From positions 186,001 through 250,000 of the forward strand of contig JABCZL010000009.1 of assembly GCA_013289685.1 (NCBI GenBank): 64,000 nucleotides of DNA. The letters are read 5' to 3'. Each line of letters opens with the position of its first letter. Positions within the stretch are counted from its first letter, which is position 1. Under the pieces are notes generated by a model that made no database searches, was not told the origin of the DNA, and was given only the letters and a program-made list of their open reading frames with translations. This document shows positions 28,415 to 34,255 of the stretch, piece after piece. Source of the stretch: Acidobacteriota bacterium. GTDB lineage: Bacteria > Acidobacteriota > Terriglobia > Terriglobales > Acidobacteriaceae. Position numbers and translations under genes: made by a program.

Positions 28415-29314
28415 ATGATTTCTCGCATTCTTGTCAGTGGCGTTTCCGGGCTCATCGGCGGCGCGCTTCTTCCTACCCTTAAAACCCGCGGATATGAAAT
28501 CACACGCCTGGTGCGAGGCGCGGCCAGCGGCGGAGATCAGATTTCGTGGGACCCCGGAAAGCCGATTGCACCCGACGCTGTTTCCGGCTTCGACGCGGTC
28601 GTCCATCTGGCGGGCGAGAGCATTGTCGGACGCTGGACGAACGAAAAGAAACTGAAGATCCGCGACAGCCGCGTCGCGGGCACGACCGCTCTCGCCGAAG
28701 CGCTGGCACAGGCCAAAGACAAGCCACAGGTATTCGCCTGCAGTTCGGCGATTGGCTACTACGGCGACCGGGGCAATGAGGTGTTGAACGAGGAGAGTGC
28801 ACCCGGCACTGGGTTCCTTCCTGAAGTTTGCCGCGAGTGGGAAGCGGCGACCCAGGCTGCAGTTGACGCCGGCATTCGGACCGTCCAGATGCGCACCGGC
28901 ATTGTACTTACTGCGACCGGCGGCGCGCTGGGGAAGATGCTCACGCCGTTCAAGATGGGCGTGGGCGGAAAGATCGGCGACGGGCAGCAGTGGATGAGTT
29001 GGATTGATATGCAGGATATGGTGGGCGCGATTCATCACATTCTGAAGAGCGATCTGCTACAGGGGCCGGTGAACATGGTCGCGCCCAAGCCGGTGACGAA
29101 CACGGAATTCACTCAGACATTGGCTGGCGTGTTGTCGCGCCCCGCGATCTTTCCCATGCCAGCGTTCGTGGTGAAGCTGGCCTTTGGCGAAATGGGAGAG
29201 ACTGTTCTGTTGGGCAGCCAGCGCGTTGAACCGGCGCAACTGGTGATGAGTGGCTATCCGTTTCGCTTCAACAGCCTGCGCGCGTCGCTGGAGAACATCC
29301 TAAAGACCAAGTAG
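28415..29314 (+). CDS. TIGR01777 family NAD-dependent epimerase/dehydratase-like protein
   Basis: A 299-residue SDR-extended protein. The NAD motif is ILVSGVSGLIGGALLP, followed by VVHLAGESIVGRWT (AGE block typical of this family) and the active-site region SSAIGYYGDRG. The C-terminal ~50 residues (LGSQRVEPAQLVMSGYPFRF) form the DUF1731 tail that defines the TIGR01777/YfcH group. The substrate is unknown. The stop codon TAG lies within a GTAGCGCCGCC repeat. It diverges from the relA/spoT gene. Confidence 0.9.
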   Translation: MISRILVSGVSGLIGGALLPTLKTRGYEITRLVRGAASGGDQISWDPGKPIAPDAVSGFDAVVHLAGESIVGRWTNEKKLKIRDSRVAGTTALAEALAQAKDKPQVFACSSAIGYYGDRGNEVLNEESAPGTGFLPEVCREWEAATQAAVDAGIRTVQMRTGIVLTATGGALGKMLTPFKMGVGGKIGDGQQWMSWIDMQDMVGAIHHILKSDLLQGPVNMVAPKPVTNTEFTQTLAGVLSRPAIFPMPAFVVKLAFGEMGETVLLGSQRVEPAQLVMSGYPFRFNSLRASLENILKTK

Positions 29315-29349: not shown

Positions 29350-29925
29350 CTACCGAACCGGCAAGGCGCAGACTGCGCCATCGGTAAAATTCTCCGCCTC
29401 GATTCCGAAGGCGTGATCGAAGCGGGCGCGATAATTCTCCCAGGCAATCGCGGACGTAAGCTCTACGAGTCCGGCCTCGGTGAAATTCTCCCGCAGGCGG
29501 GCAAACAGCGCGTCGGAAACTTCCACTGGAGTGCGGGTCATGGAGTCGGCATACTCGAGGACGAGCCTCTCTAGTTCCGAAAAATTGAAATCTGTTCGAT
29601 AGTTGCTGAGATTCGCGATTTGCGCCGTCGTGATGCCGCTCGCCCTGCCCACGGCAGAGCCGATGTCGATTCAAAACGGACATCCGATAAGAGTTGCGAC
29701 GCGGAGTTCAGCGAGTCCCTTGAGTTTGTGGTCGACGAGCTTGCTGCTGGCCTGGGATTGCTCCATCTGAGCGTATCCCCAAAGGATTTTGGGATGATGC
29801 GCGGTCACCTGGATCGGCATGATGACGTGGCCGAGTCTGCGTTCGGTCAGGGAATAGACAATCCCCACAAACATGCGCCGGATCAAGCCGCCCTGACTGA
29901 GGGGAGCGCCGGGAATGCGCGCCAT
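29350..29925 (-). CDS. AhpD-like / carboxymuconolactone decarboxylase-family selenoprotein (in-frame UGA)
   Basis: The gene starts at ATG 29925 with AAGGAGG six bases upstream and ends with the TAG near 29350, giving 191 residues if the in-frame TGA at 29673-29671 is read as selenocysteine (residue 85). The reading around it is VATLIGCPF-U-IDIGSAVG, where ordinary relatives have CPFC; thus the redox motif is CxxU (Cys82, Sec85). The frame continues with ordinary family sequence for over 100 codons after the UGA, so a pseudogene is unlikely. A SECIS-like hairpin follows the UGA at the right distance. AhpD-like proteins are a known bacterial selenoprotein family. It probably reduces peroxides or other thiol substrates. 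Confidence 0.85.
29642..29660 (-). promoter_or_regulatory. Putative bacterial SECIS element
   Basis: On the minus strand GCUCUGCC-GUG-GGCAGGGC forms an 8-bp stem (one U-G pair) with a 3-nt loop starting with G. The loop begins 18 bases after the UGA, within the usual bacterial SECIS distance, and lies inside the coding sequence. Confidence 0.7.
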
Positions 29926-29935
29926 GGGAACCTCC

Positions 29936-32191
29936 TTACGAATCTGGCTTGTTTTCACTGCAGGTTGAGGGGTTCATTTCGTCCTGGAGCTTTTTCAGGA
30001 GCTGTGCGCGTTGCTCGGTACTCAACTCACGCTTCAATTCTTCCAGCGCGAGGGCCACGATATGGTAGTGGTGGGCGCCGGCGAACTTGGGATCGGCGGT
30101 GATATTCAGCCACAGCTGGTGCATGAGTTCGACATCTTGCGGGCGCATGCGGGGCGTATGCGGCCCGAGGGCAAATTCGCGAATCGTTCCGTCGGGGGCG
30201 CAAACTTCCAGCGTCAGACGCGGACGCGGCTCCGGCAGGCGCTCCCACGCGTCACCCGTGAGCTTGGCCTGCTCGTCGGCGGTGAGTTTATTCGAAAGCC
30301 CGCACACGACGCGACTGGAATCGAGCCGCTGCGCTGTCACCATGATGGCTTCAAACACATCGGTCGCGGGGACGACCAGCAGCGAGATGGGCTTGCCTTC
30401 CTTTTCGGCCACAGCCACGGCGGCGGTAAAAAGCTCCTGTTCGTAGTGGTCAAAAACCTGGCTGGCCTCGAAAACCGTGCTGCCACTGAAACTGTGTTCG
30501 CGATGATACAGACGGGCGCTCATGACTACCACATCCTGCTTGCCGGTATGAGTGTGGCCAAGCACGTGCCGCAGGTAGTAAAGATTGCGCGGGTCGCGCA
30601 CCGCCACCAGGACGTTGCCCGCCCGCACGCCCATGGCGCCGCTACCGAGTTCCTGATTGCCATAAACGCGGAACTGGTCAAGCTGCTCGGGCTTGCCGTG
30701 GCGCTCTTTGGCGACATGGTGCTCGGAGATGGTGAAGATGGTGAAGAAGACCACACTGAAAACAATGCCGGCGATCGTCGCCTCATACTTGGTGAACAGA
30801 TTCACAATTGCGGTCATGAAGAGCACTGCAGAAATGACGATCAGGCCAAAGGGAAGTTCCGTCTTTCCAATGTGCAAATTCCCCGGAACCTTCCACTCGC
30901 GGTTGCCCGGTTCGGTGAAGCGCAACACCAGCACCGCCAGCGACTTCATGGTGAAACTCCAGATCACCCCAAAGGCGTAAAGCGCGGCCAACTGGTAGAC
31001 GTCTCCCCGGCTCAGCACGATGGTCAGCAACTGCAGGCAGACGATCAGGTTGATGATGCGGTAACTCGTGCCGTAGCGGTGGTGCGGCTTCTGAAACCAG
31101 CTGGTGAGCACGCCATCTTCCGCCACTCGGTTTAGGACGCCATTGGCACCAACGATGGAAGTGTTCTGCGCCCCGGCCAGGATCAGCACCCCAACCAGTA
31201 CGACGAAGCCATGGAACAGGAGTTTCAGGCTGGTCGGCCCCACCAGGTACATGGCGATGCCGCCGATAAGGTTGGCGAAGTAATCGGGGCGCACCTTGTC
31301 CGGGATGATCATCACCGCGAAGAACGAAACCAGCGATGTGAAAAGCAGGCTGTAGAGAAAAATCACCAGCCCGGTCTTCTCCAGATTCTTCAGCTTGGGG
31401 TGTTCGATCTCGCGGTTGACCTGAGCCAGCGTTTCTTCCCCGCTCATGGCCAGCACGGAGTGCCCGAAGCCAACGAACGCAATGATCCAGATCCAGTGGC
31501 TGAACCAGGTTCCATTGAGCCAGCCCAGCGATTCTTTGTTCAGCGGAATCACGCCCGCATGCAGCGGGTTGGGCGGCAACTGAACCGGAGCCCGCAAAAC
31601 CGTAATCGTGCACCAGATGATCAGAATCACCACCATCACGGTCGTAATGGCCATGATCTGCAGCGCCTTCTGGCTGGATTCGTGAATGCCCTGCGTGTTC
31701 TTCCACCAGAAGTAAACCACGATGATGATGGCCAATCCGGCGGCGAAATGGTCGTCGGAAAAACTCAGCGTACGGTGAAAGAAGTACGCGCCAATGTCCT
31801 TGATGAAGCCCGCCAGGTATTGCCCGGCAGAGACCGCACTGATTGGGCCGGTAAGCACATAATCGAACAGCAAAGCCGAGACGGAGAACTTGGCCAGAGT
31901 TCCGCCCATCGCTTCTTTGACGACGCGATAGACGCCGCCACGTACGAACATGCTGCTGGACTCGATGTACAGCGCCCGGACGCAGTAGCTGAACAACATG
32001 ACCGCCAGAATGAACCAGGGTGCGCTTTTGCCAATGACCTTTTCGGCATCACCGCCCGCGTAATATGCGGAGGATGCCAGGTCGGAGAGAACGATCGCAG
32101 AGGCGCGCCAGAACGAGATGAAGGTCAGCATCACCGTAGTGGCGACGAAGACCTTTACTGCCGGTTTTGTACCCTCAGGGGCGGTAGCCAT
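29936..32191 (-). CDS. APC-family amino acid/polyamine permease with soluble C-terminal domain
   Basis: A 751-residue protein. Residues ~10-490 contain about twelve transmembrane helices with APC features (SSAYYAGG..., RGGVYRVVKEAMGG, FVGFGHSVLAMSGEETLAQVN). After the last helix (FSVVFFTIFTI) a ~240-residue cytoplasmic domain follows, with NVLVAVRDPRNLYYLRHVL and ISLLVVPATDVFEAIMVTA resembling universal-stress-type folds. Substrate unknown. The permease gene ends 10 bases before the start of the selenoprotein gene on the same strand, so the two may be cotranscribed. Confidence 0.85.
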   Translation of the reverse strand: MATAPEGTKPAVKVFVATTVMLTFISFWRASAIVLSDLASSAYYAGGDAEKVIGKSAPWFILAVMLFSYCVRALYIESSSMFVRGGVYRVVKEAMGGTLAKFSVSALLFDYVLTGPISAVSAGQYLAGFIKDIGAYFFHRTLSFSDDHFAAGLAIIIVVYFWWKNTQGIHESSQKALQIMAITTVMVVILIIWCTITVLRAPVQLPPNPLHAGVIPLNKESLGWLNGTWFSHWIWIIAFVGFGHSVLAMSGEETLAQVNREIEHPKLKNLEKTGLVIFLYSLLFTSLVSFFAVMIIPDKVRPDYFANLIGGIAMYLVGPTSLKLLFHGFVVLVGVLILAGAQNTSIVGANGVLNRVAEDGVLTSWFQKPHHRYGTSYRIINLIVCLQLLTIVLSRGDVYQLAALYAFGVIWSFTMKSLAVLVLRFTEPGNREWKVPGNLHIGKTELPFGLIVISAVLFMTAIVNLFTKYEATIAGIVFSVVFFTIFTISEHHVAKERHGKPEQLDQFRVYGNQELGSGAMGVRAGNVLVAVRDPRNLYYLRHVLGHTHTGKQDVVVMSARLYHREHSFSGSTVFEASQVFDHYEQELFTAAVAVAEKEGKPISLLVVPATDVFEAIMVTAQRLDSSRVVCGLSNKLTADEQAKLTGDAWERLPEPRPRLTLEVCAPDGTIREFALGPHTPRMRPQDVELMHQLWLNITADPKFAGAHHYHIVALALEELKRELSTEQRAQLLKKLQDEMNPSTCSENKPDS

Positions 32192-32382: not shown

Positions 32383-34134
32383 TCACTTCGCTTTCTGTTG
32401 CGCGATCCATTTGTCGGTTCGGGCTTCGAGCAGATCGAGGGGCAGCGTACCGCCGTCGAGCATTTCGTCGTGGAATTTGCGGAGATCGAACTTCGGGCCC
32501 AGCTCTTTCTGGGCGCGTTCGCGCAGCTCGCGGAACTTGAGTTGGCCCAGCTTGTAACTGAGCGCCTGCGCCGGCCACGAGATGTAGCGGTCGGTCTCGG
32601 ACTGAATCGTTGGCTCATCGACCGCGCCAGCTTTGCGCATGAACTCCACAACCTGATCGCGGCTCCATCCTTTGGCGTGAATGCCGGTGTCGACGACTAA
32701 ACGCACGGCCCGGAAAAGCTCGGAGGAAAGCCGCCCATAATCCGAGACCGGATCCTGATAGAAGCCGACCTCCTTGCCCAGTTGCTCGGCGTAGAGTGCC
32801 CAGCCTTCGATATACGCGTTAAAGCCCAGACCGTGCAGGCGGAATTTCGGTAAACCCTCCAGCTGCTGCTGCACGGAAAGCTGCATGTGATGTCCGGGGA
32901 CACCTTCGTGGTAAGCGACCGCCTCGTCATCGATTAGCGAGCGGTCGGCGAACTTGGACGTGGCGACAACCACCCGGCCCGGCCGTTTGCCATCCGGCGT
33001 TCCCGTCATGTAGTGGGTCGCAGCGGCCGCCTGGAATTCCGGAATCGCTTCCACGGTAACCGGCGACTTGGGAAGCAGTGTGAACAGTTCAGGAAGCTTC
33101 GGCTGCATCTGCGCGATGTAATGGCGAAAGTCGTCGAGGATCTGCTCGGCGGATGTGGGAATGTACTTGGGGTTCGTCTTCAGCGAGGCTCGGAACGACG
33201 CCAGGTCGGCGAAGCCCTCTTTCCTGGCGATCGCGGTCATCTCGGCTTCGATGCGATCGATCTCGCGCAGGCCGAGCTGGTGTATCTCGTCCGCCGTCAT
33301 GCGAGTCGTGGTGCGGGCGTAAATGTCGTTTTCGTAGCGCTTCTTGCCATCTGGAAGCGACGTGACGGAAAGGCTGGTACGGCCCTGGGGAGCATATTCG
33401 GTCTGGATGAAGGCGGCGAAGGTCTTGTACGCCGGGAGCACGTCGGCGTTGACGGCGTCGGTGATCTGCTGAGTCAGGCGCTTCTGATCCTCCGGCGAAA
33501 TACTTGCCGGATACTTCTTGGTCGGCAGCAGGAAGGGATCGGCATCGATAATGCCCTGGCACTGCGCCGGAATCTTTTCCGCCAGGAATCGCACGGGCAT
33601 GAGCTTGTCTTTCATGCCTGCACGGAGAACTTCGGTGACCTGGCTGAGCGCGCGCGGAATCTGGTGCAGGCGCGCGATGTAGTCTTCGTAGTGCTTCACG
33701 GAGAAGAACGGAACCGACAGTGGCAGGTCGGCGAGATTGGTGTGGATGCCGCCCTGCTGGTTGATCGGCATTTCATATTCCTTCAGGCCAAAATCGGCGA
33801 TGCGCTGCTGCATGACGCGGATCAACAGATCGTGCGAGAGCTGGTCCTGGTCGGAGAAATCCGCGGTATCGATCGCCTTCAGACGCTGCAGGAAGCCTTC
33901 GTCGGTCTGATGGCGCTTTTGGATGGCGTCGAGAGAGTAGTCGGCGAGCCGGTCGTTGTAGCGGTAGTCGCCGAACGCGGTGGCGCGCTCCGGGAAGTTG
34001 CGGAGATCGGTTTCATACTGCTCGTCGAAAAGAGCGTTCTGCGCAGCCAGGCGGTCGGCAACGGGCTTGGGTCTTTGGGCAAAAGTGAAAGCAGCTGTGG
34101 TGAACAGAAGCAGGAAGGCTATGGAAGGGCGCAT
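32383..34134 (-). CDS. DUF885 family predicted metallopeptidase, exported
   Basis: A 583-residue protein from ATG 34134 (MRPSIAFLLLFTTAAFTFAQ), which is a clear signal peptide; an upstream ATG at 34188 adds 18 residues before it. The C-terminal third has AYHEGVPGHHMQLSVQQQL, the HExxxH-like zinc motif of the DUF885 family, and YIEGWALYAEQLGKEVGFY with the downstream Glu ligand. The family is widely predicted to be Zn peptidases acting outside the cytoplasm; substrates are unknown. Monocistronic, flanked by repeats. Confidence 0.88.
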   Translation of the reverse strand: MRPSIAFLLLFTTAAFTFAQRPKPVADRLAAQNALFDEQYETDLRNFPERATAFGDYRYNDRLADYSLDAIQKRHQTDEGFLQRLKAIDTADFSDQDQLSHDLLIRVMQQRIADFGLKEYEMPINQQGGIHTNLADLPLSVPFFSVKHYEDYIARLHQIPRALSQVTEVLRAGMKDKLMPVRFLAEKIPAQCQGIIDADPFLLPTKKYPASISPEDQKRLTQQITDAVNADVLPAYKTFAAFIQTEYAPQGRTSLSVTSLPDGKKRYENDIYARTTTRMTADEIHQLGLREIDRIEAEMTAIARKEGFADLASFRASLKTNPKYIPTSAEQILDDFRHYIAQMQPKLPELFTLLPKSPVTVEAIPEFQAAAATHYMTGTPDGKRPGRVVVATSKFADRSLIDDEAVAYHEGVPGHHMQLSVQQQLEGLPKFRLHGLGFNAYIEGWALYAEQLGKEVGFYQDPVSDYGRLSSELFRAVRLVVDTGIHAKGWSRDQVVEFMRKAGAVDEPTIQSETDRYISWPAQALSYKLGQLKFRELRERAQKELGPKFDLRKFHDEMLDGGTLPLDLLEARTDKWIAQQKAK

Positions 34135-34255
34135 AGGAGGATTAGCGTACCAGACTAAACCGGCATGATCCAACCTGGGGCAGGTCAATACCTGTGACGG
34201 CTGATTTCAACAGCCATGATGGAACTGCACACCGATTCTGGCGTAAAGTGCTCAA

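Follow-up and report, generated by a model that had tools for sequence, protein, structure and literature searches.

Selenoproteins that carry a CxxU motif on an AhpD-like or carboxymuconolactone decarboxylase (CMD) domain have been in print since 2005, when a Sargasso Sea study named 27 AhpD-like and 4 CMD domain-containing proteins of this kind (PMC1088965). Two CxxU families, AhpD-like (TIGR01926) and CMD-like (PF02627), appear in a review of 2026 (PMC13188914), in keeping with the earlier note's statement that AhpD-like proteins are a known bacterial selenoprotein family. For AhpD itself, the mechanism has been described as a five-residue proton relay composed of Glu, Cys, His/Tyr, Cys, and His (PMC3141380). 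CMD proteins are also found as partners of ECF41 sigma factors; according to a 2012 survey, all ECF41-linked CMD proteins carry CxxC and the ECF41 promoter is TGTCACA-n16-CGTC, with SigJ being named in a figure legend of the same paper (PMC3426412).

The window (the whole stretch of 64,000 nucleotides analysed here) contains a gene whose product is probably a new member, as a probably separate subfamily, of this CxxU kind. Like the CMD-like CxxU selenoproteins of the Sargasso Sea set, the window protein has a PF02627 domain and a predicted Sec in the second position of its motif, a likeness to proteins from marine data at the level of domain and motif (PMC1088965, PMC13188914). With the AhpD-like selenoprotein (COG2128/TIGR01926; PMC1088965, PMC9312934, PMC13188914) it shares the AhpD-like fold, the CxxU motif, and a hairpin past the UGA, but it falls below the TIGR01926 cut-off and has G70, F84, and G89 at positions of the AhpD/PA0269 relay. 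Likewise, it has in common with Mycobacterium tuberculosis AhpD and Pseudomonas aeruginosa PA0269 (PMC3141380) an all-helical fold and a CxxC-type redox pair, whereas Sec is predicted in place of the second Cys, the relay residues are gone, and D87, E155, E163, R166, and R168 are invariant instead. Our literature search found no paper on the pair of selenoprotein and Sulfotelmatobacter, returned only PMC9312934 among the matches listed for selenoprotein paired with YciW, and found no tested function for the window's subfamily.

We read the gene as encoding a 191-residue CMD/AhpD-fold selenoprotein in which the UGA at codon 85 specifies Sec and Cys82 and Sec85 form a redox pair for the reduction of oxidants or disulfides, and we assign this reading a probability of about 0.93. 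The features of the locus are:

29350..29925, minus strand: predicted CMD/AhpD-fold selenoprotein gene, 191 codons plus TAG, with the UGA read through as Sec
29671..29673, minus strand: in-frame UGA, putative Sec85 of GCPFU, identified from the frame and aligned with Cys in six homologs
29642..29660, minus strand: candidate bacterial SECIS hairpin of 8 bp, covarying, with loop GUG at 29652-29650 and its firmest pairs within 29659-29643
29931..29937, minus strand: Shine-Dalgarno-like AAGGAGG, 5 nt upstream of the ATG by direct reading
29936..32191, minus strand: APC-family permease gene (PF13520), upstream, its stop 10 nt before the selenoprotein ATG
28415..29314, plus strand: TIGR01777/YfcH-type oxidoreductase gene, a convergent neighbour

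On the minus strand, the frame runs from an ATG at 29925-29923 to a TAG at 29352-29350 and is open throughout except for the TGA at 29673-29671, with 84 codons before it and 106 after. The TGA directly follows TGT-CCG-TTT (C82-P83-F84), that is, it occupies the second position of the CxxC/CxxU motif. Standard ORF calling cuts the gene into pieces of 95 aa and 100 aa, and the ORF list also holds a 113-aa ORF that competes with it in a different frame. These results bear out three statements of the earlier note, namely that two adjacent minus-strand frames are one gene, that the TGA lies at the second redox position of a CPFC-type motif (the sequence reads GCPF-U), and that standard annotation splits the gene. 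Ordinary gene calling cuts it precisely at the catalytic residue, and annotation of these soil bacteria likely misses it. Elsewhere in the window, the 22 candidates for genes split by one TGA that least overlapped long ORFs were inspected by eye, and only the gene at 29350-29925 was convincing.

Orthologs are present in 12 of 44 other genomes of the genus, several of which are incomplete, and are 71-86% identical to the window protein. Each of the 12 has exactly one in-frame TGA in the matched stretch, at the same codon, and no other in-frame stop. Over all pairs of the 13 sequences, differences 3' of the TGA fall at third (3895), first (1316), and second (762) codon positions; the third-position excess is much as it is 5' of the TGA (2937, 1194, and 756, respectively), which shows that coding constraint acts on the downstream half in the same manner. 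A GGAG run lies 5' of the ATG in all 12 orthologs, and the ATG is in frame in 11 of them. In the exception, L023, from a genome (G016) with 7% contamination, a short deletion immediately downstream of the ATG leaves the start out of frame; it may be real or an assembly error.

Were the TGA a true stop, the gene would be a recent pseudogene or would yield a truncated product. Decay may well occur at this locus, as the L023 deletion and a second case suggest: in genome G006, the locus L041 (about 1420-1946) holds a broken syntenic copy of the selenoprotein gene, with two TAGs and frame shifts, that adjoins the same YfcH-type oxidoreductase gene as the window gene. However, neither chance nor decay yields a TGA that is kept in homologs of several phyla and that is the only in-frame stop in 12 of 12 same-genus orthologs with coding-type substitution beyond it, and we regard a pseudogene or truncated product as very improbable. 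Decay past the stop in close relatives, which the earlier note had proposed to look for, was seen in 0 of the 12 same-genus orthologs, to be read alongside the L023 start deletion and the one further syntenic copy that is broken. The restriction of the gene to 12 of 44 genomes, together with these two cases, indicates that it is dispensable; its loss in some members of the genus is an argument against essentiality and not against the Sec reading.

Beyond the genus, family loci are named as Acidobacteriota, Planctomycetota, Actinomycetota, Chloroflexota, Myxococcota, Gemmatimonadota, and others, and homologs from several phyla carry a TGA at the same site. The number of family carriers is a lower bound, as two of the searches matched more sites than the loci inspected. 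One record, a Sec homolog (L122), is named Pseudonocardia acaciae DSM 45401, and the row nearest to the window in our tree is a Candidatus Sulfotelmatobacter MAG. The alignments comprise 23 and 54 sequences, picked by hand from the collected sites. As the earlier note had anticipated, Cys and Sec alternate at residue 85, which is Cys in 6 of the 77 located sites of an 80-locus set. On the tree of 55 rows, the distribution of Cys requires 4 changes, of which starred branches force 2 or more; this count includes one outgroup Cys row, the selB-adjacent Cys paralog added on a very long branch, and deep support is poor (21 of 52 inner branches are open).

The same column bears on whether the UGA could be read as another residue, through Trp insertion, near-cognate readthrough, or a changed genetic code. 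An open frame under an altered code alone is no proof of Sec, which is why such a reading deserves consideration. Yet the six family members that lack the TGA have Cys, not Trp, in this column; a neighbouring gene at 32383-34188 ends in TGA, as do 3 of 12 orthologs; and both a covarying hairpin and a complete Sec machinery are present. We give this explanation very little probability.

The genome from which the window comes (6.85 Mb, 98.9% complete) contains all four genes whose presence the earlier note had suggested checking: selA (548.9 bits with a neighbouring segment; cut-off 268), selB (348.8 bits; cut-off 242), selD (363.4 bits; cut-off 125), and the tRNA-Sec gene selC (64.9 bits). Because two other tRNAs (Arg and Ser) pass the tRNA-Sec family cut-off too, this score alone is insufficient; ARAGORN names only the 64.9-bit one Sec, with anticodon tca. 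Among the 27 genomes with an inspected GC(P/V)FU locus, own genome included, selB scores above cut-off in 26 (a hand tally that may be off by one), and among all 150 genomes it does so in 123 by tool, leaving 27 below (28 by hand count). The co-occurrence of carriers and selB (Fisher one-sided p 0.022) lends weak support, since selB is common overall. The exception, G103, is a carrier without selB above cut-off in a genome that is 54% complete.

Several further observations concern the machinery genes. In G072, a 96% complete genome, AhpD-like TGA matches (C89:33037, C73:49739) occur without selB above cut-off among the matches listed, possibly reflecting a fragmentary selB or decay. The selD of the window's own genome (G000:C13:22161-23099, L051) is itself split by one in-frame TGA in a GUASK context and is probably a selenoprotein gene. 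Also in this genome, a CMD paralog with GCHYC (G000:C9:132243-132653; ORF 7965-8675 of L020) lies convergent to selB (C9:132771-134675), about 85 nt apart, and by coordinates the pair recurs in many genus members. In three other genera of the same bacterial family (G047, G048, G054), the selB-adjacent CMD match contains a TGA; on this basis, the selB-linked CMD paralog may itself alternate between Cys and Sec.

The hairpin that follows the UGA reads GCUCUGCC-GUG-GGCAGGGC, with the stem starting 10 nt after the UGA and the loop G reached after 18 nt. Its folding energy is unremarkable, both for 47 nt alone (z -1.51; 16 of 200 shuffles fold equally well) and for 121 nt (z -1.63; 10 of 200), such that from a single sequence the hairpin is indistinguishable from chance. 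An Rfam search at a permissive threshold gave no match at the hairpin and one chance match elsewhere (E 5.2). The hairpin alone thus folds only slightly better than its shuffles, and the case for it rests on comparison and not on energy. Accordingly, we compared 108 Sec sites (27, 71, and 10 from three locus sets), which reduce to 94 distinct sequences of 42 nt, plus 6 Cys sites. Left out of this set were L041 (broken), L047, and L048 (both of the CEYC type) from the 30-locus search; L102, L112, and L115 (motif not located) from the 80-locus search; and, from the third search, L133 (the window itself) plus L144-L162 (which belong to other AhpD-like subfamilies or have no located motif).

The sites align gap-free. 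At a fixed distance from the UGA, all six inner pairs form in 60 of the 94 distinct Sec sites and five in the remaining 34, 30 of which lack the innermost pair only. The mean number of inner pairs formed is 5.64, against 3.08 (sd 0.12, maximum 3.52) in 1000 synonymous recodings that kept the proteins and used the family's own codon usage; the recodings thus control for constraint on the protein. In the 8-bp form, pairing holds in 85.4% of cells, and sliding the partner by 1-3 columns lowers this to 36-47%. Cells with compensatory changes on both sides number 70 (18.1 when shuffled) and the covariation score is 0.278 (0.090 when shuffled), neither value being reached in 500 shuffles; these shuffles ignore relatedness, which the slid-column controls retain. 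Counted pair by pair from the outside, formation is seen in 28 of 94 sites for pair 1, in 84 for pair 2, in 92-94 for pairs 3 to 7, and in 64 for the innermost pair, so that the firm part consists of the five to six middle pairs. The earlier note had described an 8-bp stem with a 3-nt loop starting with G, 18 bases after the UGA, at 29660-29642; this hairpin is present and covaries, with the refinement that its middle five to six pairs are the firm ones. In the six Cys homologs, 5, 3, 1, 3, 2, and 3 of the six inner pairs form, and the Cys homolog with five (L099) is the weak point of the contrast between Sec and Cys sites.

The loop also contains a GTG (29652-29650) that begins a 100-aa ORF just past the TGA, which raises the prospect of two polypeptides, with a stop at the UGA, a restart at the GTG, and the hairpin serving translation coupling. 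However, although the loop begins with G in 90 of the 94 sites, its codon varies (GTG in 52, GTC in 20, GGG in 5, and others), and a start codon is thus not conserved. Furthermore, the split would come right after the first catalytic Cys and inside the modelled fold, and the six Cys homologs are one continuous chain, most of them with a weak hairpin. A restart is therefore, in our judgment, extremely improbable. The earlier note's proposal that the UGA is read as Sec is instead supported by the conserved frame, the covarying hairpin, the full machinery, and the alternation with Cys, and on this comparative evidence Sec insertion is very likely.

The same permease gene lies just upstream in 8 of the 12 same-genus orthologs, making cotranscription of the permease and selenoprotein genes plausible; the YfcH-type oxidoreductase gene is in the available flank of 8 of the 12 as well, in two only partly. 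Clustering of neighbours around 77 of the 80 loci gave several clusters that looked by eye like wrong-frame ORFs of high-GC contigs. From the same clustering, ECF41-type sigma genes recur beyond the genus. A tblastn search with three ECF41-type sigma proteins (E up to 1e-15) matched the flanks of 10 of 138 loci, nine of them Sec loci (L046, L094, L097, L109, L110, L113, L118, L123, and L130) and one a Cys locus (L099); the L046 match is only 30% identical. Of the four sigma proteins scored among these ten, three exceed the cut-offs of both TIGR02957 and SigJ, whereas the one at L118, taken from a broken frame, stays below. The ECF41 promoter, searched for as TGTCAC-n14-18-CGTC, is present in 6 of 100 loci at 200-420 nt 5' of the UGA, against 0.18 expected from its rate elsewhere in the same loci. 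All six (L045, L046, L094, L097, L123, and L130) have TGTCACA and n16, and as some are close kin (L094 and L097) they do not represent six independent events.

Hence, some distant Sec relatives adjoin ECF41-type sigma genes, with six loci having the promoter, and they are CxxU proteins, whereas the CMD partners of the published survey are all CxxC (PMC3426412). The string 'selen' is absent from that survey, a search of the open-licence literature for ECF41 together with selenocysteine gave one paper, off topic judging by its title, and we know of no paper there that links ECF41 and Sec. The link in relatives makes it possible to test whether a selenium-dependent redox task is under ECF41 control. 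The window gene differs in having no ECF41 neighbour: no factor in its genome scores above the TIGR02957 cut-off (best 67.4 bits; cut-off 323.25), and the promoter pattern has no match in the window. The ECF41 link thus does not explain the control of the window gene.

The window protein matches the Pfam CMD family (PF02627) with 29.4 bits, above the gathering cut-off of 23. An AlphaFold2 model, built from 54 sequences with Cys replacing Sec, has a mean pLDDT of 94.8, and the best solved match to this predicted fold is Deinococcus radiodurans AhpD (6k40; Z 22.0, rmsd 2.1 over 180 residues). Other solved matches include further peroxidase-related proteins, the debrominase Bmp8 (Z 19.5, rmsd 3.0), PA0269 (2o4d; Z 18.9), and M. 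tuberculosis AhpD (1gu9; Z 10.8). In profile comparison, the closest solved sequences are Atu0492 (1.7e-19), PA0269, and Bmp8 (2.2e-18). At the AhpD relay positions the window protein has G70, C82, F84, U85, and G89. The complete relay is found in 0 of 54 aligned rows, a minority of which have Glu or Asp at 70 or His at 89; invariant in all 54 are C82, residue 85, D87, E155, E163, R166, A167, and R168. Judged from the alignment and the model, the protein resembles AhpD in its predicted fold and redox pair and not in the proton relay.

Among curated families (NCBIfam release 20.0), every model that the window protein matches scores it below cut-off. The best is NF053654, a YciW-related (seleno)protein model also labelled GroundWater_YciW (129.3 bits; cut-off 310); the others include TIGR01926, a peroxidase-related enzyme (25.3 bits; cut-off 81.8), and TIGR00778 (21 bits; cut-off 27.8). 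Each of the 54 rows has a match to NF053654 (E 3.3e-40 at best), which places the window subfamily next to this curated family and outside its cut-off. A sister set in Acidobacteriota (L138, NGCLFUQDINAA) scores 300.8 bits, just under the cut-off, and seems to be the core of NF053654. The earlier note's assignment to the AhpD/CMD family on both sides of the TGA therefore stands as regards PF02627 and the AhpD-like fold, and does not extend to the AhpD relay or to the cut-offs of the curated AhpD-like models. Given that no NCBIfam model accepts the window protein above its cut-off, a dedicated model could be added at once for this broad family with its own, strongly conserved hairpin.

We propose that SelB with Sec-tRNA(Sec) would read the UGA of codon 85 as selenocysteine, the hairpin from 10 nt downstream presenting its G-starting loop such that the UGA is decoded and translation continues to the TAG. 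The product would have a Cys82-Pro-Phe-Sec85 redox pair at a helix start, where Sec85 would attack a substrate in oxidised form, whether a peroxide or other oxidant or a disulfide, and then form a selenenylsulfide with Cys82, to be reduced again by a cellular dithiol system. CxxU pairs in general cycle through the formation of a selenenylsulfide and its subsequent reduction, and a Sec85-Cys82 selenenylsulfide cycle is likely here. The protein is most likely a selenol/thiol oxidoreductase, and a role in reducing oxidants or disulfides, for which we infer the catalytic direction, is plausible. A selenol has a low pKa, which might make the Glu/His relay of AhpD less needed. This idea is weakened by the Cys homologs, which likewise lack the full relay; relay loss is thus not tied to Sec. 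The missing relay offers a case for testing which functions a selenol can take over.

The loss of the AhpD relay residues (G70, F84, and G89 stand at their positions), together with the place of Bmp8 among the nearest solved structures by both profile and fold, could also suit a selenoprotein with a different chemistry, be it Bmp8-like reductive dehalogenation or some other reduction outside peroxidase activity. On the other hand, Atu0492 and PA0269 match slightly better by profile and D. radiodurans AhpD better by fold, Bmp8 itself retains a His after its CMYC motif, and the neighbours looked at (permease, YfcH-type oxidoreductase, RelA/SpoT) give no hint of halogen chemistry. We consider such a chemistry unlikely, and Bmp8-like dehalogenation less likely than the reduction of oxidants or disulfides.

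Two aspects may surprise specialists, namely the relay loss and the association of some Sec relatives with ECF41. Perhaps the window gene represents a single branch within a wide and largely uncurated selenoprotein family in which Sec replaces the Glu/His relay on an AhpD fold, distant branches being selenium-using ECF41 targets and the window branch having left ECF41 control and joined a permease operon. This scenario is speculative and, as a whole, somewhat unlikely; if true, ECF41 would gain a selenium-dependent redox output.

Among the AhpD-like loci left out of the hairpin set, L144 has a WCAFC Cys pair. Six others (L147, L150, L153, L157, L159, and L162) form a second TGA-containing AhpD-like group in Acidobacteriota, with a C-x-Y-U motif and a His four residues past the U. 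Several of them have a different hairpin-like stretch (about CACTGCTTYGGCRAAGCAG), and by eye this group seems to retain the AhpD relay residues.
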